NCBI GenBank assembly: GCA_022842165.1
Contig: JALHQC010000005.1
Span: 62,001-126,000 of the forward strand
DNA: 64,000 nt
Direction: 5' to 3'
Source of the DNA: a bacterium
Lineage (GTDB): Bacteria > Pseudomonadota > Alphaproteobacteria > Rhizobiales > Aestuariivirgaceae
The notes beneath the pieces are model-generated. The model searched no databases, was not told where the DNA came from, and saw only the letters and a program-made list of their open reading frames with translations. Shown here piece by piece: positions 33,274 to 58,936 of this stretch; the first letter of the stretch is position 1; each line of letters starts with the position of its first letter. Position numbers and translations under genes: made by a program.

Positions 33274-35490
33274 TTACGGTTTAACATCAAAGACGAAGAG
33301 GCCGCCGCTCATTGCCGGTCCATCTTCGTCGGGCGCAGCACTGGCACCGCGCGTCGCATTGCCTTCAACAGCTCCAAGCAAGGTTGCCAATTTGCTTTTC
33401 TGACCGCGCGTTGCTGCAACTTCAGCCCCCCGTGTCTGTTGCATCGCCGCAAGGGTTGGCTGCGTGAGGGCACAGAGACGTGGCGGAGCGCCGGTCTTGT
33501 CTTTCGGGATGGCAAGCACCACGAAATTCTCAGCACCGATGGTCGACGGCTTTCCTGTCTTCTCATCCCAGGTATCAATCCAGAACTTGAAAGACAGCGC
33601 CTTGCCCGTTCCGGCAGGCAGGGGCCGCACGCAACCAGTCCGTGATACGCTGGAAGGAATGGCCGCAACGCCGCCCAGCGCATCCACATAGAACCCGGCA
33701 ACATAGTAATCCTGGTCGCTGTCGTTCGTTGCCTCGATGGATACGAAATCGCAGTTTCCTGCGGCGGCCGGCAGCTGCGGATCGAAGGGTGATGCCTGGG
33801 CGGCAGCAGGAGCCGACTTCGTATCGCAAGCGGCCTTGGCGTTTCGCGAAGGTGAACGCGCCATGCTTGCCTTAATGGAAATTCCTTTGTCATCCGCTGC
33901 CGACGCACCTAACGCCGAGGCAACGCGGACCAGCTTAGCAGCCCGCGCCAGACTCCACACCGCGTTCTTGATTTCGGCGCTGAGCTTGTCAGGGTTTTTG
34001 TTGAGGTCAATGCTGGGAGTTTCGTTATAAGCCCCGGCGGTGGTCGTCCAGGGTTTGTCAGGTCTGATAATCCAGATGCGGCTATCCTTCACCCGCAACA
34101 GTACGTCGGCATCGGGATTACCAGGCTCGCCTAGTTCGATTCCGATGGTATCGGCGCCATCTTTGAAAACGTCGCCGAGACGGCTGGCGACAAGTTCGTT
34201 GCTGGCAGCATCGGCAAAGTCGCTGACCGGCGGTGGTGAGACGATAAAGCGAAAACTGATGGCAGGCTCGATGACGACCGCCGCGAGCGTGCCGCGATCG
34301 AGCGCCTTGGCGCCTTCTGCCCAGGCGATATTTTCGGCCACGCTGGTGACAGCGGTCGCGTTTGTCACCTCGGCATGGGCAACGGGCTTATCAAGCGTGC
34401 CGACTGCATAGAGCGCCAGTTTAGCGCCAACATCGTAGCCATGCAGTGAGCCAACCGGAAGCGTAAGCTGGCCAGCGGCCAGAAGTCCGTTAGCCGAGTT
34501 CGGCAAACGATCTGCACCGCTACCTGGAATCGGGTTGTCCAGTTCTCCATCAAACACCGGGGGAGGCACCTTGCCGCCTGTGTGGTCCATATTCAACTCG
34601 GACATGATCTCTTGGGCCAGGTCGCGGTAGGTAGACGCCGTGTTACGAGTTAGTGCCCTGTGCAGGAGATAGGTGAATACCCCCATCCGTTGGTCGGCGG
34701 CTTCACCGACCATGGGAAGATTATAGCCGGGGAAGGGACGTTCAATCGCTTGATCATAGGACTCGACCGCATAAAAGCCAACGAGACCACCATCGCCGAC
34801 GACCGATTTGACCTTCATGGTACCTTCGCGCGTGGCACTGCGTGAGGCTTGGGCTGGCGCTGCAGCAGGAATGCCGAGGCTGGCGGGATCGACCGAGCGG
34901 GTGATGGTATCACCGCGTGTCACGGTGCCAGAATGGCAGGCATCGATCACGGCCCACACGAAAGCACCCTTAGCGCGGATCACCGAAATCTTGCGGCCTA
35001 GAACGTCATCGATGATGGCGTTCTTCAAGGTCATCTTAATGGGATCATAAGCTCCCACGTCAGTAGGTAGAATGACCTGGTCCATGCCATCGGCTTCCGG
35101 CTCGTCTTCGGGCTCTGCAGGATTATCCGGCTGGCGAACCCCATGGCCGGAATAGTAGAACAAGACGGTATCGCCCTTCTGGGCTATTTCAGTAAGGCGA
35201 TCAAACTCAGCCAGGATATTAGCGCTTTCAGCCAATCCCTTGGCGACAGGGAAATCGGCACTTAAAGGAAGCTTGTCAGTGAGAACAGTAATGTCCTCTT
35301 GCTTGACATCGCGCGCCCTTAAAGCGCGCCAAAGGATCGACACGTCGTTGCGCGGACCCAGCAGATCGGTAATCCCCGATTCCGCGTTGTAGTCAGCGGC
35401 GCCAACAAGCAGAGCCATGGTCTTGGCCTCGGCGACTGACTGAAAGGCAAGTAACGCGGTTGTGAGAACGATCCACTTCAGGCGATTCAT
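33274..35490 (-). CDS. Exported caspase-like (peptidase C14) protein
   Basis: A 738-aa protein. Signal peptide 1-22 (WIVLTTALLAFQSVAEA), then a caspase/metacaspase fold with catalytic H116 (FYYSGHGV) and C185 (VIDACHSGT), preceded by MALLVGAADYN. About 450 residues follow without a recognised domain, including a probable beta-rich region with Cys near the end. The start at 35490 (MNRLKWIV) puts the signal peptide first; the upstream extension is discarded. Targets may be periplasmic. It stands alone; its promoter has a 12-bp palindrome at 35514-35525. Confidence 0.85.
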   Translation of the reverse strand: MNRLKWIVLTTALLAFQSVAEAKTMALLVGAADYNAESGITDLLGPRNDVSILWRALRARDVKQEDITVLTDKLPLSADFPVAKGLAESANILAEFDRLTEIAQKGDTVLFYYSGHGVRQPDNPAEPEDEPEADGMDQVILPTDVGAYDPIKMTLKNAIIDDVLGRKISVIRAKGAFVWAVIDACHSGTVTRGDTITRSVDPASLGIPAAAPAQASRSATREGTMKVKSVVGDGGLVGFYAVESYDQAIERPFPGYNLPMVGEAADQRMGVFTYLLHRALTRNTASTYRDLAQEIMSELNMDHTGGKVPPPVFDGELDNPIPGSGADRLPNSANGLLAAGQLTLPVGSLHGYDVGAKLALYAVGTLDKPVAHAEVTNATAVTSVAENIAWAEGAKALDRGTLAAVVIEPAISFRFIVSPPPVSDFADAASNELVASRLGDVFKDGADTIGIELGEPGNPDADVLLRVKDSRIWIIRPDKPWTTTAGAYNETPSIDLNKNPDKLSAEIKNAVWSLARAAKLVRVASALGASAADDKGISIKASMARSPSRNAKAACDTKSAPAAAQASPFDPQLPAAAGNCDFVSIEATNDSDQDYYVAGFYVDALGGVAAIPSSVSRTGCVRPLPAGTGKALSFKFWIDTWDEKTGKPSTIGAENFVVLAIPKDKTGAPPRLCALTQPTLAAMQQTRGAEVAATRGQKSKLATLLGAVEGNATRGASAAPDEDGPAMSGGLFVFDVKP

Positions 35491-35812
35491 AGTCAGTCTT
35501 TCTAGGCTGCAGCGTGCAATTGCACTTCCTATAAAATCACAATTTAGGAACTGCGCAATGGTGAAAATCGATAACGGATCCCGGCACCAACTAGAAACCT
35601 TGCCTTGCATCTGCACATCTGGATTGTCGTGTAGTTCTGATGAACAATTCTGCTGCATAAACATTGACGAGATCCAGTATCATAGCCGGCAAGCCTGCAA
35701 GTCTGTCAGATCGGGCCGATCTATGCTCTTCTTGCGAAAACGACTTTGCAAATGCCGATGCATTTGATAGCGGCTTGGACAGCAATTCGTCAGGTTGAAT
35801 ATGCACCTGAGT
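35491..35812. other. Intergenic region, 322 bp, with a perfect palindrome
   Basis: Lies upstream of the caspase-like gene and downstream of the MerR gene. It holds GTGCAATTGCAC (35514-35525), a perfect 12-bp palindrome 24 bp before the caspase-like start codon. No gene is supported. Confidence 0.5.
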
Positions 35813-37832: not shown

Positions 37833-38489
37833 ATGATGAAGAGAAGAGACCTGATTGTTGGTGCCATAACGTCGGTGATTGTCAGCATTGGAGGGGCTGG
37901 CACGGCTTTAGCGGAGAAATACCCGATCTCACGAGCCGATATCCAGAAGGTGCCGCCAAAGTACCGCCGGAAGCGGGTACGGTTCTTCTCCGACTATCCT
38001 CCCGGAACCATCGTGGTCGATACGCGGAAGAAATATCTCTATCTCGTGCAACCCGCCGGGAAGGCCATCCGCTACGGCATTGGCGTTGGACGACAGGGTT
38101 TTTCGTGGTCGGGCGCGGCGGTGATCAAGCGCAAGGCCAAATGGCCGACCTGGACGCCACCGGAATCAATGGTTGCGCGGGATGAGTTCGCCGCTCAATG
38201 GGCGGGCGGCATGCCTGGGGGACCAAAGAACCCACTTGGGGCGCGTGCTTTGTATTTGTTTCAAGGCAATGTCGACACACTCTACAGAATACATGGGACT
38301 TTTGCGCCATCGTCCATTGGCAAAGCCGTATCCTCAGGTTGCATCCGAATGATCAACGCCGATGTCGCCGATCTCTACGAGCGTGTTCCAACAGGAACCA
38401 GGGTTGTCGTTCTGCAAGGGCGCTCGCCCGAAGTCAGTGAAGATGGCATGCCAACAAAACGGCGCCGGCTGCTATCGATATTCGAGTGA
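37833..38489 (+). CDS. L,D-transpeptidase (YkuD family), first copy
   Basis: A 218-aa exported enzyme: leader with [19 protein letters not shown]; YkuD core from [15 protein letters not shown]; active site H154 (RIHGT) and C170 (SSGCIRM). It forms 3-3 peptidoglycan cross-links or attaches proteins to peptidoglycan. It lies 42 bp after DsbA and 14 bp before the P-type ATPase start. A paralogue with the same core is at 52181. Confidence 0.9.
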
Positions 38490-38503
38490 TAGAAGGTAAG
38501 GCC

Positions 38504-40657
38504 ATGACAGCAGGAGCTGCAAAATTCAGCATCAAGGGCATGGATTGTGCGTCTTGTGCCACGAAGATCGAGACTGCGGTCAAACGTATCGACGGCGTCA
38601 GCAATATCAAAGTCGGTCTGCAAAGCGAAACTCTCACCGTGACTCTCGACAAAGCAGATACGGGGGAGAAGGTCGAGCAGGCGGTTCGCGCTCTGGGCTA
38701 CGAAGTCTCACCAGTCGGCAGTGCCAGACGAAAGTCAGAGACAGCGTCTTCCGAAACGGGAGGCGTTGCGGATCATGATGATCATTCCGATCATGCTCAG
38801 CCTATCGACGGGCCCTGGTGGGAATCGAGCAAAGGGATTCTTGTCATCATAACCGCCGTGATGATTGGATTGGCCTATCTTGAAAAGAACCTTCTTCCAT
38901 ACGGGTCACAATATGTCTTCCTGGCAGCTGCGGCGATAGGAACGTTTCCTGTCGCAAAGAGGGCGATCTCAGCGCTGCGTGCTGGCTCCGTCTTTACGAT
39001 TGAAATGCTGATGACCATTGCGGTTATCGGCGCCGTTATCATTGGTGCCACAGAGGAAGCAGCTGTTGTTGTGGTGCTGTTCGCTATCGGAGAGCTGCTG
39101 GAAGGCATAGCGGCAGGGCGCGCGAGGTCGGGTATTAGGGCGCTGGCACAGATTGCTCCCAAGACGGCAATGTTGGAAACGCCAGATGGACTGGTTGAAA
39201 CCGCAATTGATAAAATTGCGGTAGGTTCAATTGTTGTAGTTCGGCCAGGAGACCGGGTTCCCGCGGATGGCATTGTCATTTCCGGAACGTCCTCTGTCGA
39301 TGAGTCTGCGTTGACAGGCGAATCTATGCCAAAGGCGAAAGACGAGGGTGACATCGTCCTGGCAAGCTCGATCAACACCGAAGCTGTTTTGCGGGTACGT
39401 GTTGATAAGCCGGCGGAAGATACACTGATCGCTCGGGTCGTAAAGTTGGTCGAGGAGGCTGCCGACGCCAAGGCTCCGTCCGAACGCTTTATCGACCAGT
39501 TCGCGCGTTGGTATATGCCAGCCATCTGTCTCATTGCCATAGCCGTCGCTATTGGCCCGCCACTGCTTTGGCAGGAACCATGGAACACGTGGATTTATCG
39601 TGCCTTGGCTCTGTTGCTGATTGGCTGCCCCTGCGCCTTGGTCATATCGACACCTGCAACGATCGCTTCGGCACTCGCCGCCGGTGCACGACATGGTCTG
39701 CTGGTTAAGGGAGGCGGCATTCTCGAAGCCATCGGTAAGGTCAAACACATCGCCTTTGACAAGACGGGCACATTGACGGAAGGAAAGCCCAAGGTTACGG
39801 ACGTCGAGGTATTTGGCAAGCTGAGCCGCGAAGAGCTGCTTCGCATTGCTGCTGCAGCTGAGTCTGGATCATCACATCCTCTGGCAGTGGCGATCGTAAA
39901 TTATGCCAAGTCGGAGAACATCGCATTTACGCCAGTCGAGTCCCAGGCCATCCCAGGAAAGGGACTATCCGCCAGTGTTGATGGCAAGCCAGTTATTATC
40001 GGTGCTGCGGTTCGGCTTGGCGTCTCCGACACTTCACTCCTCGCACGGGCTGCCGCAATGGAAGCTGAAGGCAAAAGCGTTTCTGTCGTGATCGTAAATC
40101 TCAAGCCGGAAGGTTTGATAGCCCTTCGTGATGAGCCGCGGGCGGATGCCATCGCGGGGATTCGAGATATCAAGTCACTCGGCGTCACACCAATCATGCT
40201 GACAGGTGATAACCGTGCCAACGCCGAAGCCGTTGGCAAGATCGTCGGCATGGAAGTTCGAGCCGAACTTCTGCCTGAGAACAAGCTTGAGATCATCAAG
40301 CAACTGAGCGGAACATCGGGAGGGATTGCAAAGGTCGGTGACGGCATCAATGACGCACCAGCTCTCGCTGCCGCCACTGTCGGTATCGCCATGGGCTCTG
40401 GCACGGACGTCGCACTCGAGGCCGCTGATGCGGCGGTCCTCAACAACAGGATCACGGATGTTGCAGATCTGATCCGGCTGTCTCGCCGCACGATGGTGGT
40501 GATCCGACAGAACGTAGCGATTGCACTTGGGCTTAAAGTCGTGTTCCTGGTCACAACTGTAATCGGTGCTACCGGGCTATGGATTGCGATCCTCGCAGAC
40601 ACTGGTGCGACGGTATTGGTCACGCTGAACGCCCTGAGGTTGCTGAAGAAAATATGA
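38504..40657 (+). CDS. Zn/Cd/Pb-type heavy-metal P-type ATPase
   Basis: A 717-aa P1B ATPase: HMA domain with C15-A-S-C18 (GMDCASC), a His-rich linker (HDDHSDHAQ), eight helices, membrane metal site C375-P-C377, phosphorylation D419 (DKTGT), HP motif (SSHPLA) and GDGIND. This is the ZntA/CadA/PbrA class exporting Zn, Cd or Pb. The ATG at 38504 has AGGTAAGG upstream; a GTG six codons earlier overlaps the transpeptidase stop. The ATGA overlap with lspA, and uppP downstream, mirror pbrABC lead-resistance loci. Confidence 0.92.
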   Translation: MTAGAAKFSIKGMDCASCATKIETAVKRIDGVSNIKVGLQSETLTVTLDKADTGEKVEQAVRALGYEVSPVGSARRKSETASSETGGVADHDDHSDHAQPIDGPWWESSKGILVIITAVMIGLAYLEKNLLPYGSQYVFLAAAAIGTFPVAKRAISALRAGSVFTIEMLMTIAVIGAVIIGATEEAAVVVVLFAIGELLEGIAAGRARSGIRALAQIAPKTAMLETPDGLVETAIDKIAVGSIVVVRPGDRVPADGIVISGTSSVDESALTGESMPKAKDEGDIVLASSINTEAVLRVRVDKPAEDTLIARVVKLVEEAADAKAPSERFIDQFARWYMPAICLIAIAVAIGPPLLWQEPWNTWIYRALALLLIGCPCALVISTPATIASALAAGARHGLLVKGGGILEAIGKVKHIAFDKTGTLTEGKPKVTDVEVFGKLSREELLRIAAAAESGSSHPLAVAIVNYAKSENIAFTPVESQAIPGKGLSASVDGKPVIIGAAVRLGVSDTSLLARAAAMEAEGKSVSVVIVNLKPEGLIALRDEPRADAIAGIRDIKSLGVTPIMLTGDNRANAEAVGKIVGMEVRAELLPENKLEIIKQLSGTSGGIAKVGDGINDAPALAAATVGIAMGSGTDVALEAADAAVLNNRITDVADLIRLSRRTMVVIRQNVAIALGLKVVFLVTTVIGATGLWIAILADTGATVLVTLNALRLLKKI

Positions 40658-43134: not shown

Positions 43135-44316
43135 CTAGATTTTGATCAGCGCTGCGGTCGCATACATGAATGCGAGTCCGACAAGAAATCCCGCAAGGAC
43201 GGCAGGAGAAAACAGCACTGACTGCTGGTCACTTTTCTGCCGCATCAGGTAGCTGCCGACCTCGACCATGACCTGCAATATTGCGCCGGCCCCAACCGCC
43301 AGCGCAAATGCCGACCATTGCGGCGCATAGGCAAGGCTTCCAACCCACATACCGAAGATAGCGGGTCCGCCGGCCAATAGGGTCAGGGCAGCGAATGTCC
43401 AGAGCGGTGGGCGGACGCGCAGTATCGGTGCCGCAATGCCGATCCCCTCGGTCACGTTATGGAGAGCAAAGCCCAGCACGAGGAACGTCCCAAGTCCAGC
43501 TGATCCAGCGGCAAATGCACCACCGACCGCCAGCCCCTCGCCGAAATTGTGCAGCCCGATACCCAATGCTATGTAAAATGCAAGCGCTAGCCCTTCCGGT
43601 CGGCCATGCCATCGGCCGATAGCCATGAGTAACAGGAAGCTCGCCAAGGCAGCCAGCCAAACCATGGCGGATCCTTGAAACAATGCGGCAGCGCTGGCTG
43701 CAAGCTCTTGCGCCTCGGTCATCATGTCGATGAGCAAGAAAGCCAGGAGGCCGACAGTCAGTGCGAGAAGGAAGTTCATTCCGGCTTTCCCGACACTGCG
43801 CATTGCCGGATAGAACATCAGGCCGAGCGCCACTGGCAGTATACCAACGATCGCTCCGACAAGTGCTAAAGTGTAAAATTGAGACGCGGTAGCCTTTGGG
43901 GTTGGAACAGCCACGGCGATTTCATGTTCAAATGCTGTGCCGGTATTGGACAGTAGATTAACGAGGTGCGCCTCGCCCAGAACCCAAGGATACGGAATCC
44001 GAACCCACACGGCGTTCCCTCGGGCGATTGGTCCGGGCGGATCCTGGGTAAAGCTCCAGAATGCATCGTCTACCGCCACCTGGGCAATCACCATGGCTTC
44101 CGATCCGCCGGCACGTACCAAAAGCCCCATCCCGTTCTCGTCCAAAATGGTGCGCTCGACGGTGAGCGCCTCGAGCGGCGGCGCGCCGTTGTTGAAACTG
44201 CGCAATGGATCGAGCGACGCGATCCAGACGAAGGCTATAAGCATCGCCGCAAGTGGCACAAACACCAGCAACAGACGGGTTAGGGCAGGTCTAGGCGATT
44301 GAGCATCAAAACTCAT
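43135..44316 (-). CDS. ZIP-family metal transporter with N-terminal periplasmic domain
   Basis: A 393-aa membrane protein. After one helix (LLLVFVPLAAMLIAFVWIA) comes an unrecognised domain of about 110 residues, predicted periplasmic, then eight ZIP helices with metal motifs HNFGEGLAVG and HNVTEGIGIA. ZIP proteins move Zn, Mn or Fe inward. The extra domain is unusual for bacterial ZIPs (usual length about 260-310 aa). It overlaps the multicopper oxidase gene by ATGA, so the two are made together. Confidence 0.85.
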   Translation of the reverse strand: MSFDAQSPRPALTRLLLVFVPLAAMLIAFVWIASLDPLRSFNNGAPPLEALTVERTILDENGMGLLVRAGGSEAMVIAQVAVDDAFWSFTQDPPGPIARGNAVWVRIPYPWVLGEAHLVNLLSNTGTAFEHEIAVAVPTPKATASQFYTLALVGAIVGILPVALGLMFYPAMRSVGKAGMNFLLALTVGLLAFLLIDMMTEAQELAASAAALFQGSAMVWLAALASFLLLMAIGRWHGRPEGLALAFYIALGIGLHNFGEGLAVGGAFAAGSAGLGTFLVLGFALHNVTEGIGIAAPILRVRPPLWTFAALTLLAGGPAIFGMWVGSLAYAPQWSAFALAVGAGAILQVMVEVGSYLMRQKSDQQSVLFSPAVLAGFLVGLAFMYATAALIKI

Positions 44317-45518
44317 GCCGCAGGCTCCTGCACATCGAACATGCCGACCCAGCCGAGTTCAGTAAACTCGGATTGATGCGCATGAAACATGTACATCCCT
44401 GGCTCGTGATCGGCAAAGGTGAACTCGAGAATCCCGCGCTGCGCCTGGCACTGCATGATCAGATCAACAGTACGCAACGTCGGCGTCAGCGTAGTTCCGG
44501 TATCATAGTAGTCAAAGAAGTTCGCGTGCAGATGGAATGAATTGATTGGATCGAACTCGGTTACATTCACGAGGTAAATGCGCACAGGGCGCGACTTGTC
44601 GATGCGGATGGGCACATTCATGTAGGCTTGGCCTACGGTATTTGCGGCATAGACTTCGTTGGCCCCATCAAAATTCGTGTCGAAGGCATTCATGACCATC
44701 GCCAGCTCCTGCCATTTGGCATTTTCGGAGCTACCGAGCACGCGAGAAGCTGCAGCGGCAGCGTTCTCGGGATGACGAGCGGGATCCGGATCTATCACGA
44801 AGAGGCCATACATGCCTTTGTGCATATGCCGCTTCAGCGGCAGTGCGTGACAGTGGTAAAGGTGGCAACCAAAAGGCTTTGCATCGAACTCATAGATGAA
44901 CTCTTCACCAGGGCCGATCAATCCTGCTCCGGGAACGCCGTCCATCCGGGCCGCATGGATGCCGTGGAAATGCATAGAATGTGGGTGTGAGCCATGATTA
45001 CGGAAAATGATCCGCAGCCTCTCACCCTCCTTTGCCCTTAACGCGGGTCCAGGCACGCGACCGTTGAAGGTCCAAGCGGGAAAGAAGATGCCCGGAGCAA
45101 TTTCGATTTCTCGATCTACGGCTTCGACTTCGAAGGTACGCAGTGTCCGGCCGTCAGGTAATAATTGTGTCTGGCCTGTCTCCCAGTCTGTCAGCATCGC
45201 CGTGGGGTTAAAGCCATTACGATCGTGGTCGACTCGACCAACCGTTGTCATGGTACCGTGAGCCATGCCAAGCATAGGTGGCGCATATGGATCATGCGCC
45301 ATGGTAGACGTATCGTGACCCGCCGTGGTGCCAGGTACTGTCTGGGACCGTGCGAAACCGGCTGTGATACCTGACCCTGTTGCAGCGATGAGCCCTCCAA
45401 CCAGCAATGACCGCCGAGATGTGTCAACCGGTCCTGAGATGTTATGGGGCAGGGAATTGGGATGGGACACTTCCGAAACCGGCGCATCCGGTTCGTGTTT
45501 ACGGATGTTGGCTGGCAT
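44313..45518 (-). CDS. Tat-exported multicopper oxidase, coupled to a ZIP transporter
   Basis: A 401-aa enzyme with a Tat signal (TSRRSLLVGGLIAATG). Copper motifs are HFHGIH, CHLYHCHALPLKRHM, HLHANFFDYY and HAHQSEFTELG, so type 1 and trinuclear ligands are present. The size fits a two-domain oxidase; the candidate substrate is a metal ion such as Mn(II) or Fe(II). The start at 45518 gives the Tat motif. Followed by ZIP with an ATGA overlap and divergent from mntR across an MntR-like operator. Confidence 0.88.
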   Translation of the reverse strand: MPANIRKHEPDAPVSEVSHPNSLPHNISGPVDTSRRSLLVGGLIAATGSGITAGFARSQTVPGTTAGHDTSTMAHDPYAPPMLGMAHGTMTTVGRVDHDRNGFNPTAMLTDWETGQTQLLPDGRTLRTFEVEAVDREIEIAPGIFFPAWTFNGRVPGPALRAKEGERLRIIFRNHGSHPHSMHFHGIHAARMDGVPGAGLIGPGEEFIYEFDAKPFGCHLYHCHALPLKRHMHKGMYGLFVIDPDPARHPENAAAAASRVLGSSENAKWQELAMVMNAFDTNFDGANEVYAANTVGQAYMNVPIRIDKSRPVRIYLVNVTEFDPINSFHLHANFFDYYDTGTTLTPTLRTVDLIMQCQAQRGILEFTFADHEPGMYMFHAHQSEFTELGWVGMFDVQEPAA

Positions 45519-45564
45519 GGCGTAGTGCTTCCATTGCAAAAGACAGACTAGAGGCGAGGCGCCC

Positions 45565-45586
45565 AAAGTTAGACAGTGCTAACAAT
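45565..45586. promoter_or_regulatory. Candidate MntR operator
   Basis: AAAGTTAG - six bases - CTAACAAT, with arms GTTAG/CTAAC. The 8-6-8 layout and the TAG-N6-CTA core match the E. coli MntR box. It lies between the divergent multicopper oxidase and mntR starts, so manganese could repress the oxidase-ZIP pair. Confidence 0.6.
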
Positions 45587-45634
45587 CTGCGCCAAGCCTT
45601 TACTTGTCAATAGAGTTCGTGCAAACCTAAGTCG

Positions 45635-46093
45635 GTGGTGAAAGATGATCATAGGCAAGTAGTGGCTGCGGACCAGGATGGACGCCCTCCCGACCCGCGC
45701 GCGGATGCGTTTCAGGGCGTACGTGACGCACGGCGTAACGAACTTGCCGAGGACTATGTCGAGTTGATCGCTGACCTGATCCACGAACACGGAGAGGCTC
45801 GCCCAGTCGACATCGCCGCCAGGCTTGGCGTTCGGGCTCCCACCGTAACGAAAACGCTTGACCGTCTTGCCCGCGAAGGCCTGATCACCCGCGCCAAGTA
45901 TCGTTCGGTCTTTTTGACAGACGAAGGCAGAGGACTTGCTCGCGAATGCCGCCGTCGGCACGACATTGTGTTGCGCTTCCTACTTAGTCTTGGGCTGGAC
46001 TCTGAAACAGCCGAACGAGATGCTGAAGGCATAGAGCATCACGTAAGCGCGCGAACACTCGCCTTGTTCGCGGCCTTTGTTGACCGCACCTGA
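45635..46093 (+). CDS. mntR: Manganese-responsive regulator MntR (DtxR family)
   Basis: A 152-aa regulator that closely follows enterobacterial MntR: EDYVELIADLIHEHGEARPVDIAARLGV, PTVTKTLDRLAREGLI, the wing VFLTDEGRGLA, and metal ligands in the C-terminal DAEGIEHHVS. The start is GTG 45635 (a second GTG follows). Divergent from the oxidase-ZIP operon. Confidence 0.9.
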   Translation: MVKDDHRQVVAADQDGRPPDPRADAFQGVRDARRNELAEDYVELIADLIHEHGEARPVDIAARLGVRAPTVTKTLDRLAREGLITRAKYRSVFLTDEGRGLARECRRRHDIVLRFLLSLGLDSETAERDAEGIEHHVSARTLALFAAFVDRT

Positions 46094-46282: not shown

Positions 46283-46643
46283 CTACTTCTTACCGTGTTC
46301 CGTGACCCACTTTGTCATTTCCTCTACCTCTTTAGTTTGATTGTCGATGGTCTTCTGAGCCATTTTTTTGGCGTCCTCATCCTTGCCAAATTGAAGCTGA
46401 ACTTTTGACATAGCAATTGCCCCCTTGTGATGGGCAATCATTGAGCAATTAAATGCGACATCCGGGTCGGCGGCCATTGCCCCTTGCATCATTGGCGCAT
46501 GCATAGACATCATAGCCTACATGTTGTCCCTCGTGGATTCTCCCATATTTTCGCCCATGGATTTTTGCATGTTTTCCATCTTCGTCTTCAATGTCAATCG
46601 ACGAGTCCTGAGCCCAGCATAGAGATGAGCAGTACACCGACAT
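46283..46643 (-). pseudogene. DUF305 protein gene broken by an in-frame stop
   Basis: The C-terminal 76 codons (from 46513) are a good DUF305 domain: DVAFNCSMIAHHKGAIAM and QTKEVEEMTKWV. Upstream in the same frame, ENMQKSMGENMGES continues the Met-rich family N-terminus but is cut by a TAG just before MMSMHAP, and no signal peptide remains in frame. The intact relative is at 54945. A shortened protein from the internal ATG at 46513 is possible but would stay cytoplasmic. Confidence 0.65.
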
Positions 46644-49047: not shown

Positions 49048-50409
49048 ATGTTTAACAGACGTCATCTGCTTAGCGCCGGCGCGGCGCTTGTATCGACAAG
49101 TGCTTGGGCCCAGACCTCCAACATGGGCTTGCCTGAGGCTGCAGTTATGGAAAATGCTGCAACCCAGCCGCCTCAACAGCCGACAACAGGTCCAGACTAT
49201 AACCCGGTTGTAACACTAAACGGCTGGTCGGCTCCGTTTCGCATGAACAACGGCATCAAAGAGTTCCATCTCGTCGCAGAGCCGGTCGAGCGTGAGATGG
49301 CCGAGGGCATGACGGCACGGCTGTGGGGTTACAATGGCCAGTCGCCTGGCCCCACCATCGAAGCTGTGGAGGGTGACAGGGTCCGGATCTTCGTCACCAA
49401 CAAGCTACCCGAGCATACGACAATCCATTGGCACGGAATGATTCTGCCCTCAGGCATGGATGGCGTCGGCGGCCTTTCTCAACCCCATATTCCGGTCGGG
49501 AAGACTTTCATCTATGAGTTCGATCTCGTCAAATCTGGTACCTTTATGTACCACCCGCATTCCGATGAAATGGTGCAAATGGCCATGGGCATGATGGGTT
49601 TCTTCGTGGTTCATCCGAAGGACCCAAAGTTCATGCGCGCCGACAGGGACTTCGTGTTCCTCCTCAATGCCTATGACATCAACCCAGGCTCATATGTGCC
49701 GAAAATCATGACCATGACAGACTTTAATCTGTGGTCATGGAATAGCCGAATCTTCCCCGGCATCGATCCGCTTGTTGTCTCGAAGGATGACCGCGTGCGG
49801 GTAAGGGTTGGCAATCTCACGATGACCAATCACCCGATCCATATGCACGGTTACGACTTCGAGGTGACTTGCACTGACGGTGGCTGGGTCAGACCCGAAG
49901 CGAGATGGCCGGAAGTCAGTATTGACATACCCGTCGGGGCAATGCGGGCCTATGAGTTTGATGCCAAATATGTAGGTGACTGGGCAATTCACTGCCACAA
50001 GTCCCACCACACCATGAATGCCATGGGGCACGATGTCCCGACCTTCATCGGCGTTGATAAATCGAATCTCACAAAGAAGATCCGGCGGTTTCAGCCTGAG
50101 TACATGCCTATGGGCACGAAGGGTATGGCCGACATGGGCGAAATGGAGATGCCGCTGCCGGACAACACCGTACCTATGATGACTGGATGGGGTCCGCACG
50201 GTCCAATCGAAATGGGAGGTATGTTCTCTGTCGTAAAAGTGCGGCAGGGGATCAGCGCCGGCGACTACAAGGACCCAGGTTGGTACGAGAATCCTCCGGG
50301 TACGCAGGCCTATGAGTGGACGGGTGAAATCCCCGACTTCACAAAGGCCACTGATGCCAAGACGAAGATAACACCGCCGCCGTCCTCTGAGCAGGGCGAC
50401 AACGGTTAA
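49048..50409 (+). CDS. Multicopper oxidase, copper-resistance type
   Basis: A 453-aa exported oxidase: leader MFNRRHLLSAGAALVSTSAWA; copper motifs TIHWHGM, FMYHPHSDEM, NHPIHMHGYDFE and AIHCHKSHHTMNAM; a Met-rich segment near the C-terminus (MGTKGMADMGEMEMP). Likely oxidises Cu(I) in the periplasm. 14 nt after TolC and 41 nt before a cupredoxin. Confidence 0.9.
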   Translation: MFNRRHLLSAGAALVSTSAWAQTSNMGLPEAAVMENAATQPPQQPTTGPDYNPVVTLNGWSAPFRMNNGIKEFHLVAEPVEREMAEGMTARLWGYNGQSPGPTIEAVEGDRVRIFVTNKLPEHTTIHWHGMILPSGMDGVGGLSQPHIPVGKTFIYEFDLVKSGTFMYHPHSDEMVQMAMGMMGFFVVHPKDPKFMRADRDFVFLLNAYDINPGSYVPKIMTMTDFNLWSWNSRIFPGIDPLVVSKDDRVRVRVGNLTMTNHPIHMHGYDFEVTCTDGGWVRPEARWPEVSIDIPVGAMRAYEFDAKYVGDWAIHCHKSHHTMNAMGHDVPTFIGVDKSNLTKKIRRFQPEYMPMGTKGMADMGEMEMPLPDNTVPMMTGWGPHGPIEMGGMFSVVKVRQGISAGDYKDPGWYENPPGTQAYEWTGEIPDFTKATDAKTKITPPPSSEQGDNG

Positions 50410-57360: not shown

Positions 57361-57463
57361 AATCGAACTGGGCCATTGCAGAGTCCAGTTGTTCTGTCGC
57401 GTCTGTGGCGCGGCAACTGATCCGGCGCCGGCCCACTTCCGGAAATATCAAAGGAACTTGAAC

Positions 57464-58936
57464 ATGAATCGCCGTCATTTTTCCAAGGCTCTCCTTGCAG
57501 GGAGCATTAGTCTTCCATTCGTCAACCGCGCATTTGCACCGGCCATCGCGGCGAATGCCCCGACCTCGTCCCTGAAGCTCGCTGCGGTATCGCGCACCAT
57601 AGATATCAATGGCCGCGCCGCATCGGTATTCGGTCTGACCACACCCGATGGCAAACCAGGTCTGAACCTCAATGCTGGTGAGACGGTTGGCGTTGATCTC
57701 ACCAACACGCTCGCTGAAGACACAATGATTCACTGGCATGGACTGTTGCCGCAGTGGGGTCATGACGGCGTTCCCGACTCGCCCATGCCGCTTCTCAAGG
57801 CTGGCGAAGTGCGCGGCTATGAGCTTCCCAGCGGCAAGCCAGGTACCCATTGGATGCATGCGCACACCCTCCAGGAGCAGAGCCTTCTCGCGGCCCCATT
57901 GATTGTTCGCAGCAAGGATGACCTGGTCCGTGACGAGCAGGATGTGGTGGTGCTTCTCCACGACTTCTCCTTCACGCCCGCAACCGAACTCCTGGGCAGA
58001 CTCAAGTCGGGTAATGGCATGGGTACGATGAATGGCACGAACATGCAGGGCATGGATCATTCCAAGATGCCCGGCATGAAGATGGATGACATGTCGAAGA
58101 TGGCCGGGAATATGATGGGCTCCGGCATGATGGGTATGGACATCAACGACATTGAATATGATGCCTATCTCGCCAATGACCGCACGCTCAATGATCCTGA
58201 AGTCGTGACGGTGGAGAAGGGAGGGCGCGTTCGCCTGCGCATCATCAACGGAGCGACTGCCACTGCCTTCACCATCGACACGGGTGCACTTGACGGCGAG
58301 GTGATTGCCGTCGATGGGCAAGACATCGTCCCCTTCAAGACGCAGCAATTCCCACTAGCCATGGGCCAGCGCGTGGACCTGCGACTGTCCGTTCCGAAAG
58401 AAGGCGGCGCCTTTCCGGTTCTGGCGTTGCGCGAGGGTGGCGTTCAGCGCACCGGCGTCATTCTCGCCAGCAAGGGCGCAACAGTCTCCAAGATCGCGGA
58501 TGCGGGCGAAGCAGCCGGTCCAGTACTGTCACTGGCCGCCGAGATGGGCCTTGTAGCGGCAATGCCACTCTTGCCGAAGGAGTCGGACGGAAGATTTACC
58601 GTCAATCTCTTTGGCAACATGCAGGACTATAGCTGGGGCATGCAGTCAAACGCACCGCTCACTGTCGCCGAAGGCAATCGTGTGCTTGTCGAAATGCGCA
58701 ACATGTCGATGATGACCCATCCCATGCATCTTCATGGTCATCACTTCCAGATCGTCGGCATCAATGGACAATCCTTCACCGGCGCGGTTCGTGACACCGT
58801 GATCGTGCCTCACATGACCAGCGTTACTTTCGCCTTCGACGCGATCAACCCAGGCAAGGCGTGGGCCTTCCATTGCCACCATCTCTACCACATGGCGACC
58901 GGCATGATGGCGACCATTGGCTATGAAGGAGCATGA
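57464..58936 (+). CDS. CopA-type multicopper oxidase with Met-rich insert
   Basis: A 490-aa oxidase: Tat-like leader MNRRHFSKALLAGSISLPF; copper motifs MIHWHGLLPQ, HWMHAHTLQEQ, HPMHLHGHHFQ and AFHCHHLYHMATGMM. A long Met-rich insert at about residues 185-225 (MGTMNGTNMQGMDHSKM and following) is the Cu(I)-binding feature of CueO/CopA enzymes. The ATG has AAAGGAA upstream. Confidence 0.92.
   Translation: MNRRHFSKALLAGSISLPFVNRAFAPAIAANAPTSSLKLAAVSRTIDINGRAASVFGLTTPDGKPGLNLNAGETVGVDLTNTLAEDTMIHWHGLLPQWGHDGVPDSPMPLLKAGEVRGYELPSGKPGTHWMHAHTLQEQSLLAAPLIVRSKDDLVRDEQDVVVLLHDFSFTPATELLGRLKSGNGMGTMNGTNMQGMDHSKMPGMKMDDMSKMAGNMMGSGMMGMDINDIEYDAYLANDRTLNDPEVVTVEKGGRVRLRIINGATATAFTIDTGALDGEVIAVDGQDIVPFKTQQFPLAMGQRVDLRLSVPKEGGAFPVLALREGGVQRTGVILASKGATVSKIADAGEAAGPVLSLAAEMGLVAAMPLLPKESDGRFTVNLFGNMQDYSWGMQSNAPLTVAEGNRVLVEMRNMSMMTHPMHLHGHHFQIVGINGQSFTGAVRDTVIVPHMTSVTFAFDAINPGKAWAFHCHHLYHMATGMMATIGYEGA

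Follow-up and report, generated by a model that had tools for sequence, protein, structure and literature searches.

Multicopper oxidase and ZIP transporter genes as a conserved pair: a candidate oxidase-coupled manganese importer

What does a multicopper oxidase (MCO) contribute when its gene is joined to that of a metal transporter of the ZIP family? The question is raised by a 64,000-nucleotide stretch of an alphaproteobacterial genome (Aestuariivirgaceae; GenBank assembly GCA_022842165.1, contig JALHQC010000005.1, positions 62,001 to 126,000), here called the window, in which an MCO gene and a ZIP gene form a two-gene unit on the reverse strand (43135-45518), with the MCO gene first and the ZIP gene second. 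Here we describe the distribution of this MCO-ZIP unit, which it is nearly certain is real and widespread, the predicted properties of its two proteins, and its regulation, which likely responds to manganese in alphaproteobacteria. We propose that the unit is a Mn-starvation-induced, oxidase-coupled ZIP importer, that is, a two-part metal-uptake module of the cell surface, a reading that seems to us about evenly poised between right and wrong.

Recurrence of the pair

Genome samples drawn evenly from larger groups show the two genes travelling together. Among 241 genomes of the window's class (Alphaproteobacteria), at cut-offs of our own choosing (E ≤ 1e-20 for the ZIP, E ≤ 1e-60 for the oxidase), the ZIP is found in six, the window's included, and the oxidase in the same six, with the genes adjoining. 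The ZIP occurs in 12 of 61 genomes near the window's own (window included), with an oxidase in each, and in 4 of 194 genomes of a cyanobacterial-phylum sample, each time beside the oxidase (one ZIP is frameshifted and one match is partial). In the sample of the window's phylum, 5 of 398 genomes match, four with intact pairs (the window's among them) and one with a deletion remnant (L207 1367-2037; loci are numbered with an L), where a piece of mntR adjoins the second half of the ZIP gene and the oxidase and the extra ZIP domain described below are lost.

A scan of genome contigs with the ZIP alignment confirmed at least 427 stretches, of which the best 80 were kept, nearly all from alphaproteobacteria; since these are the best matches, the evenly drawn samples weigh more. 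In all 80 of these best loci an MCO gene lies directly upstream on the same strand (L023 ends at the contig edge, and the L029 oxidase is split over two reading frames). An automatic flag marked 67 of the 80 as pairs; 12 others failed its distance rule only, which used stop-to-stop open reading frames, and L023 lies at the contig end, and these were judged from coordinates. The preliminary description of this locus, made from the sequence alone, had noted that the oxidase and ZIP genes overlap by ATGA. This overlap is present in the window, and a 4-bp overlap recurs in 71 of the 80 loci (other spacings in 9), which exceeds chance.

The pair is also found on plasmids. The ZIP matched 149 plasmid records. 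Stretches were fetched from part of these, the remainder being checked for an oxidase by their labels only. On the fetched stretches the MCO-ZIP order is seen in Sulfitobacter, Shinella, Pelagibacterium and Microvirga, and it recurs across cyanobacteria, actinobacteria, Bacillota and haloarchaea (Arthrobacter, Paenarthrobacter, two Rhodococcus, Rubrobacter, Cytobacillus, Peribacillus, Chroococcidiopsis, Pseudanabaena, Halomarina, Halomontanus and Salarchaeum). An Aquibium plasmid stretch holds only a small ZIP fragment, and the pair was not seen there. A full pair in the metagenome-assembled genome G303 (L039, titled Verrucomicrobiaceae), whose ZIP shares 81% identity with that of the window, may reflect contamination or recent transfer, and was left out of the breadth count as possible contamination. 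None of 59 candidate stretches from a scan of viral contigs was confirmed. Mobile elements can interrupt the unit: the Paroceanicella ZIP is split by a transposon. A TniQ/TniB/transposase element that interrupts the ZIP gene lies on a Mariana Trench plasmid (L022 3605-6910).

The possibility, raised in the preliminary description, that ZIPs with the extra domain occur mostly without the oxidase was checked, and no intact domain-bearing ZIP lacking an oxidase was found among the loci examined. In the haloarchaeon Natronorubrum, a ZIP encoded beside a DtxR-type gene has the first helix but not the domain, and the 7.7 kb seen there contain no oxidase. Domainless ZIPs directly after hemH at L159 and L164 (both from the same sampled class; the hemH neighbour is confirmed at L159 and assigned by similarity at L164) have no MCO among the listed open reading frames, and were treated as outside the family. 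Together, the co-occurrence in the class sample, the scanned loci and the spread over several phyla bear out a conserved unit. The window ZIP shares 80-87% identity with copies in Rhodobacterales and in further alphaproteobacteria but 48-50% with those of its congeners (5 of 36 have one), which suggests from sequence comparison that the window's copy was acquired horizontally.

Table 1. Positions of the MCO-ZIP unit and its control region in the window
Feature	Position	Strand	Remarks
MCO (two-domain multicopper oxidase)	44313-45518	-	401 aa counted from ATG; Cu-oxidase_3 and Cu-oxidase_2 matches
ZIP-family transporter (additional N-terminal helix, beta-sandwich domain on the outside)	43135-44316	-	393 aa
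Extra ZIP domain, FlaF/FlaG-like beta-sandwich	43897-44190	-	residues 43-140
ATGA overlap of MCO stop and ZIP start	44313-44316	-	
mntR, divergent regulator	45635-46093	+	both DtxR-family domains matched
Probable MntR operator (predicted) between mntR and MCO gene	45565-45586		core gttagACAGTGctaac at 45568-45583; palindrome GTTAG-N6-CTAAC

The oxidase, the transporter and its extra domain

The oxidase, whose mechanically called open reading frame starts upstream of the ATG, at TTG 45566, carries an RR (Tat-type) signal at residues 35-36, and among solved structures 7rab (E 2.7e-163) and 3gdc (E 1.3e-98) are closest to it. It is a two-domain MCO, with one type-1 Cys and eight trinuclear-site His across two cupredoxin domains, and its type-1 copper site lies in domain 1. 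Conservation was examined in an alignment with an input of 146 loci (L023, L132 and L199 yielded no oxidase of 230 residues), including 115 ZIP-paired rows (window included; 107 distinct sequences, as some loci were fetched twice). C223, H231, H183, H185, H222, H224, H329, H331, H379 and H381 are kept in all 115 paired rows and H178 in 113, residues that we take to be the ligands of the type-1 copper and of the eight-histidine trinuclear site; at the axial position, 81 rows have Met and 34 have Leu. Assignment as the nitrite reductase NirK was rejected, with an equivalog score of 79.3 bits (cut-off 296.3) and the full His set present.

The transporter scores 32.7 bits with PF02535, slightly below the gathering cut-off of 35.1, and its family membership is clearer from a predicted model (mean predicted local distance difference test, pLDDT, 83), which consists of an extra N-terminal helix (residues 11-34), a beta-sandwich (51-133) and then eight helices. 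The eight helices match BbZIP (Z 20.1, root-mean-square deviation (rmsd) 5.6, 248 residues aligned), and bacterial ZIP chains rank first among the structure matches of the model (Foldseek E 3.1e-6; Z 16-20); as modelled, the transporter is of the eight-helix ZIP fold. It shares HN-x-x-EG motifs in two helices with E. coli ZupT (HNFPEG and HNIPEG in ZupT, HNFGEG and HNVTEG in the window ZIP), but in comparison with ZupT and BbZIP it adds a helix and a domain.

The preliminary description had given the extra part about 110 residues, which holds when the linker is counted, the folded domain itself comprising only about 95. The domain resembles archaellum FlaF/FlaG (Z 11.6, rmsd 1.8 over 88 residues). 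Modelled alone it reaches a pLDDT of 95, and a Foldseek search with this model gave no match below E 1e-3, the best being 4p94 (E 1.5e-3). E49, E54, D83, W87, W111 and H117 are invariant in 26 of 26 close ZIP rows, mainly alphaproteobacterial; in a wider set of 15 rows W111 is the only one of the six to remain invariant (15), followed by E49 and E54 (14 each), D83 and H117 (11 each) and W87 (9).

Two single-reading-frame ZIP-MCO fusions bear on the role of this domain. One is from a genome of a sample that apparently belongs to the Verrucomicrobiota (L152/L153; L152 412-2226, 604 residues) and the other from a Deinococcus plasmid (L173 3944-5755, WP_239052023.1, 603 residues), and they are 51.6% identical to each other over 93%. 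Their oxidases are of another type, two-domain with the type-1 Cys in domain 2, and the Deinococcus fusion has Gln at one trinuclear His position of the alignment. The ZIP parts of both lack the extra helix and domain. The domain thus accompanies oxidases that are encoded separately, and it is absent from the fusions and from the Natronorubrum ZIP, near which no oxidase was seen; we take it to be a likely docking part for the oxidase.

Probable manganese regulators and their boxes

The divergent regulator scores 197.9 bits with the NCBIfam MntR equivalog NF008273, above its cut-off of 153, and aligns with solved MntR across the metal-site residues, those that presumably bind Mn. The preliminary description had pointed to both the divergent mntR and a palindromic box, and both are in place. 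In the window alone the palindrome is weak, a match with at most one mismatch being contained in 39 of 100 shuffles, and it was rejected as sole evidence of control; its weight comes from the conservation of the box across loci.

Three box types were scored in 80 upstream regions, those of 79 of the best 80 loci (all except L023) and of the window. In the 36 loci with an mntR-like gene within 1.5 kb, the TTAG-type is found in 22, the ATAGC-type in 12 (one locus has both) and the TGCAAAT-type in none, giving an MntR-type box in 33 of the 36. In the 44 loci without mntR, the TGCAAAT-type is found in 28, the ATAGC-type in one and the TTAG-type in none. Among all the regions, L029 and L034 were scored as having no box after a scan at the wrong place (the RR motif being missing). 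The corresponding rates for the three types in shuffled upstream regions are 3.8%, 0.9% and 1.75%.

Genome-wide searches extend these counts. With up to two mismatches, the TTAG box has one site per genome, at the MCO-ZIP locus, in the window's genome and six others; this search alone is not strict, because its backward control gave five matches across the same seven genomes. The TGCAAAT box is found in 6 of 7 genomes searched, with no match in the backward control, and its six further sites, in five genomes, are all placed at the 5' end of a gene that is sitA-like in five cases and mntH in one. EfaA, a Mn/Fe protein, gives the top score for four of the five sitA-like proteins; ZnuA scores are far lower (63-81 bits). 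MntH passes its model (627 bits, cut-off 430). The TGCAAAT box is probably that of Mur, a name we give it because Mur of R. leguminosarum is described as controlling sitABCD and mntH in response to Mn (PMC5575495). The unit thus has a box in common with the sitABCD/mntH Mn-uptake regulon in genomes without a local mntR, although the transporters of that regulon are of the ABC and NRAMP types and have no oxidase. Conserved boxes of two kinds back the earlier suggestion of manganese control, which we consider likely in alphaproteobacteria. Because these two unrelated boxes are linked to Mn regulators, the operon would serve cells that are short of Mn, and hence uptake.

The regulation also bears on two other functions. 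In one of these, oxidised iron or copper would enter through the ZIP, as has been proposed for copper in ammonia-oxidizing archaea, where MCO1 is encoded beside a ZIP permease (NVIE_000600/NVIE_000590), a Fet3-like route is suggested, and copper limitation moderately raises MCO1 and the neighbouring permease (log2 0.81 and 1.33; PMC7785015). The DtxR-type regulators at actinobacterial and haloarchaeal loci and the copper genes adjoining the window's pair are consistent with this function, but the window MntR and the box common to sitA-like and mntH genes indicate Mn in alphaproteobacteria, and we consider iron or copper uptake unlikely.

The second is a resistance module, in which the oxidase would detoxify periplasmic Cu(I) or Mn(II) and the ZIP would be a by-stander or an exporter in a heavy-metal island. 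The surroundings of the window's pair are in keeping with this, with a cadmium-family P-type ATPase (38486-40657, TIGR01512 above cut-off), lspA, PCuAC, SCO1 and two further MCOs (49048-50409 and 57389-58936), and efflux genes are present in 7 of the 20 plasmid stretches fetched. However, repression of the MntR and sitA/mntH kind would shut the unit off in excess Mn, and we consider a resistance module quite improbable.

The metal island of the window (37128-58936) also encodes a DsbA-like protein, an L,D-transpeptidase, uppP and a TolC-like protein. Just beyond mntR, 46283-46513 encodes a DUF305 protein that covers only profile positions 85-150 of 151, the gene being apparently truncated or frameshifted, and 33274-35664 encodes a 796-residue protein with a caspase (Peptidase_C14) domain. 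In different phyla, the genes after the pair encode Rieske proteins (L014, L017, L018), plastocyanin (L016, L197) or TatA (L015, L195), companions that would suit an oxidase at the surface with partners for electron transfer or export.

Proposed oxidase-coupled uptake and its meaning

In the importer that we propose, the oxidase would be exported through its RR (Tat-type) signal and would work beside the ZIP on the outside of the membrane, with the ZIP beta-sandwich probably keeping it in place. When Mn is plentiful the unit would be repressed by the local MntR or, where mntR is missing, by the regulator shared with sitA and mntH (probably Mur), and Mn starvation would switch it on. The oxidase, with O2, would then act on the metal at the mouth of the ZIP, such that redox-active Mn(II) would be selected and redox-inert Zn(II) and Cd(II) would not. 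Selection by redox chemistry would explain why copies of the unit lie among metal-resistance genes, and where efflux genes neighbour the unit, Zn or Cd might block ordinary Mn importers. Mn as the cargo, and its oxidation before entry, are what we infer from this arrangement.

Our working analogy is the yeast Fet3p-Ftr1p system, in which an MCO and a plasma-membrane permease are joined in oxidation-coupled uptake. The window unit differs in having a two-domain MCO, smaller than Fet3p, a ZIP-fold permease in place of Ftr1, which does not belong to the ZIPs, and Mn-type regulation. The preliminary description knew of no such bacterial system for Mn or Fe, and we found no bacterial MCO-ZIP system for either metal among the open-licence PMC papers that our searches returned (including PMC3852070, PMC12844094, PMC9240420, PMC2631029 and PMC11817551), though two partial precedents are in print. 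In the archaeal MCO1-ZIP system, compared here by its published description, a two-domain MCO gene likewise adjoins a ZIP permease gene, but that system is proposed for copper. In Corynebacterium glutamicum a ZIP is repressed by Mn-responsive MntR, according to a title cited in PMC12844094; the MntR control is alike, but that title contains no oxidase.

Several observations weigh against an oxidase-coupled Mn importer. ZIPs are taken to transport divalent ions, and for one to let Mn(III) through would be unusual. The fold of the extra domain is generic, and no function was read from its structure matches because these are generic beta-sandwiches. The fusion, itself a point in favour, is rare, with one in 112 genomes of its class and one plasmid record at 80% coverage. 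The box patterns were derived from the same loci in which they were counted, and no box was found in 15 of the 44 loci without mntR and 3 of the 36 with it. The sitA-like proteins reach no curated cut-off, and for that of L180 the top score goes to AztC, a zinc protein (213.5, with EfaA at 211.1). Some cyanobacterial, Bacillota and fusion loci lie near ArsR genes and efflux pumps with no Mn regulator in view, and in actinobacteria and haloarchaea the DtxR-type regulators may respond to iron. Lastly, an oxidase of the same subfamily, scoring more weakly, occurs without this ZIP in 35 of the 194 cyanobacterial genomes. For 27 of these 35, no ZIP was found in the flanks (1.5 kb per side, some cut by contig ends). 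In a tree rooted on the distant fusions, these 27 unpaired oxidases (L122-L149 minus L132) form one clade (support 1.0) within the paired oxidases, and they retain all copper ligands. Counting in favour of the importer, N326, Q358, E384 and L388 are present in 115 of 115 paired oxidases and in 0 of the 27; W390, present in 114 of the 115, is Cys in all 27.

That ZIPs are carriers of divalent ions and MCOs are oxidases of Fe(II) and Cu(I) is established knowledge, and this favors a third alternative, in which the oxidase would act as a guard. It would oxidise Fe(II) or Cu(I) competing for entry at the mouth and leave the cargo alone, and Mn(II) would pass through the ZIP like any other divalent ion. 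The regulation and pairing described above are expected equally for a guard and for an oxidase acting on the cargo, and nothing in the present evidence separates the two roles; we regard the guard as doubtful. The oxidase-coupled importer may be carried further, to a pan-prokaryotic, redox-gated Mn importer in which a two-domain oxidase, fused to the ZIP or docked on an outer ZIP domain made for this purpose, oxidises Mn(II) at the pore mouth and Zn(II) and Cd(II) are excluded. This broader form we put forward as a tentative possibility. If it is true, cells would stay Mn-replete in metal-polluted places, and the selectivity of a ZIP would rest on its partner enzyme.

It is a standing question how cells select Mn when zinc, cadmium and iron resemble it and often bind more tightly. 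A conserved oxidase-importer unit, with its natural fusions and signs of induction by Mn starvation, offers a testable answer in which redox chemistry would take the place of binding affinity. The pairing of oxidase and permease by which yeast takes up iron would then have a counterpart in prokaryotes, built on a different transporter family.

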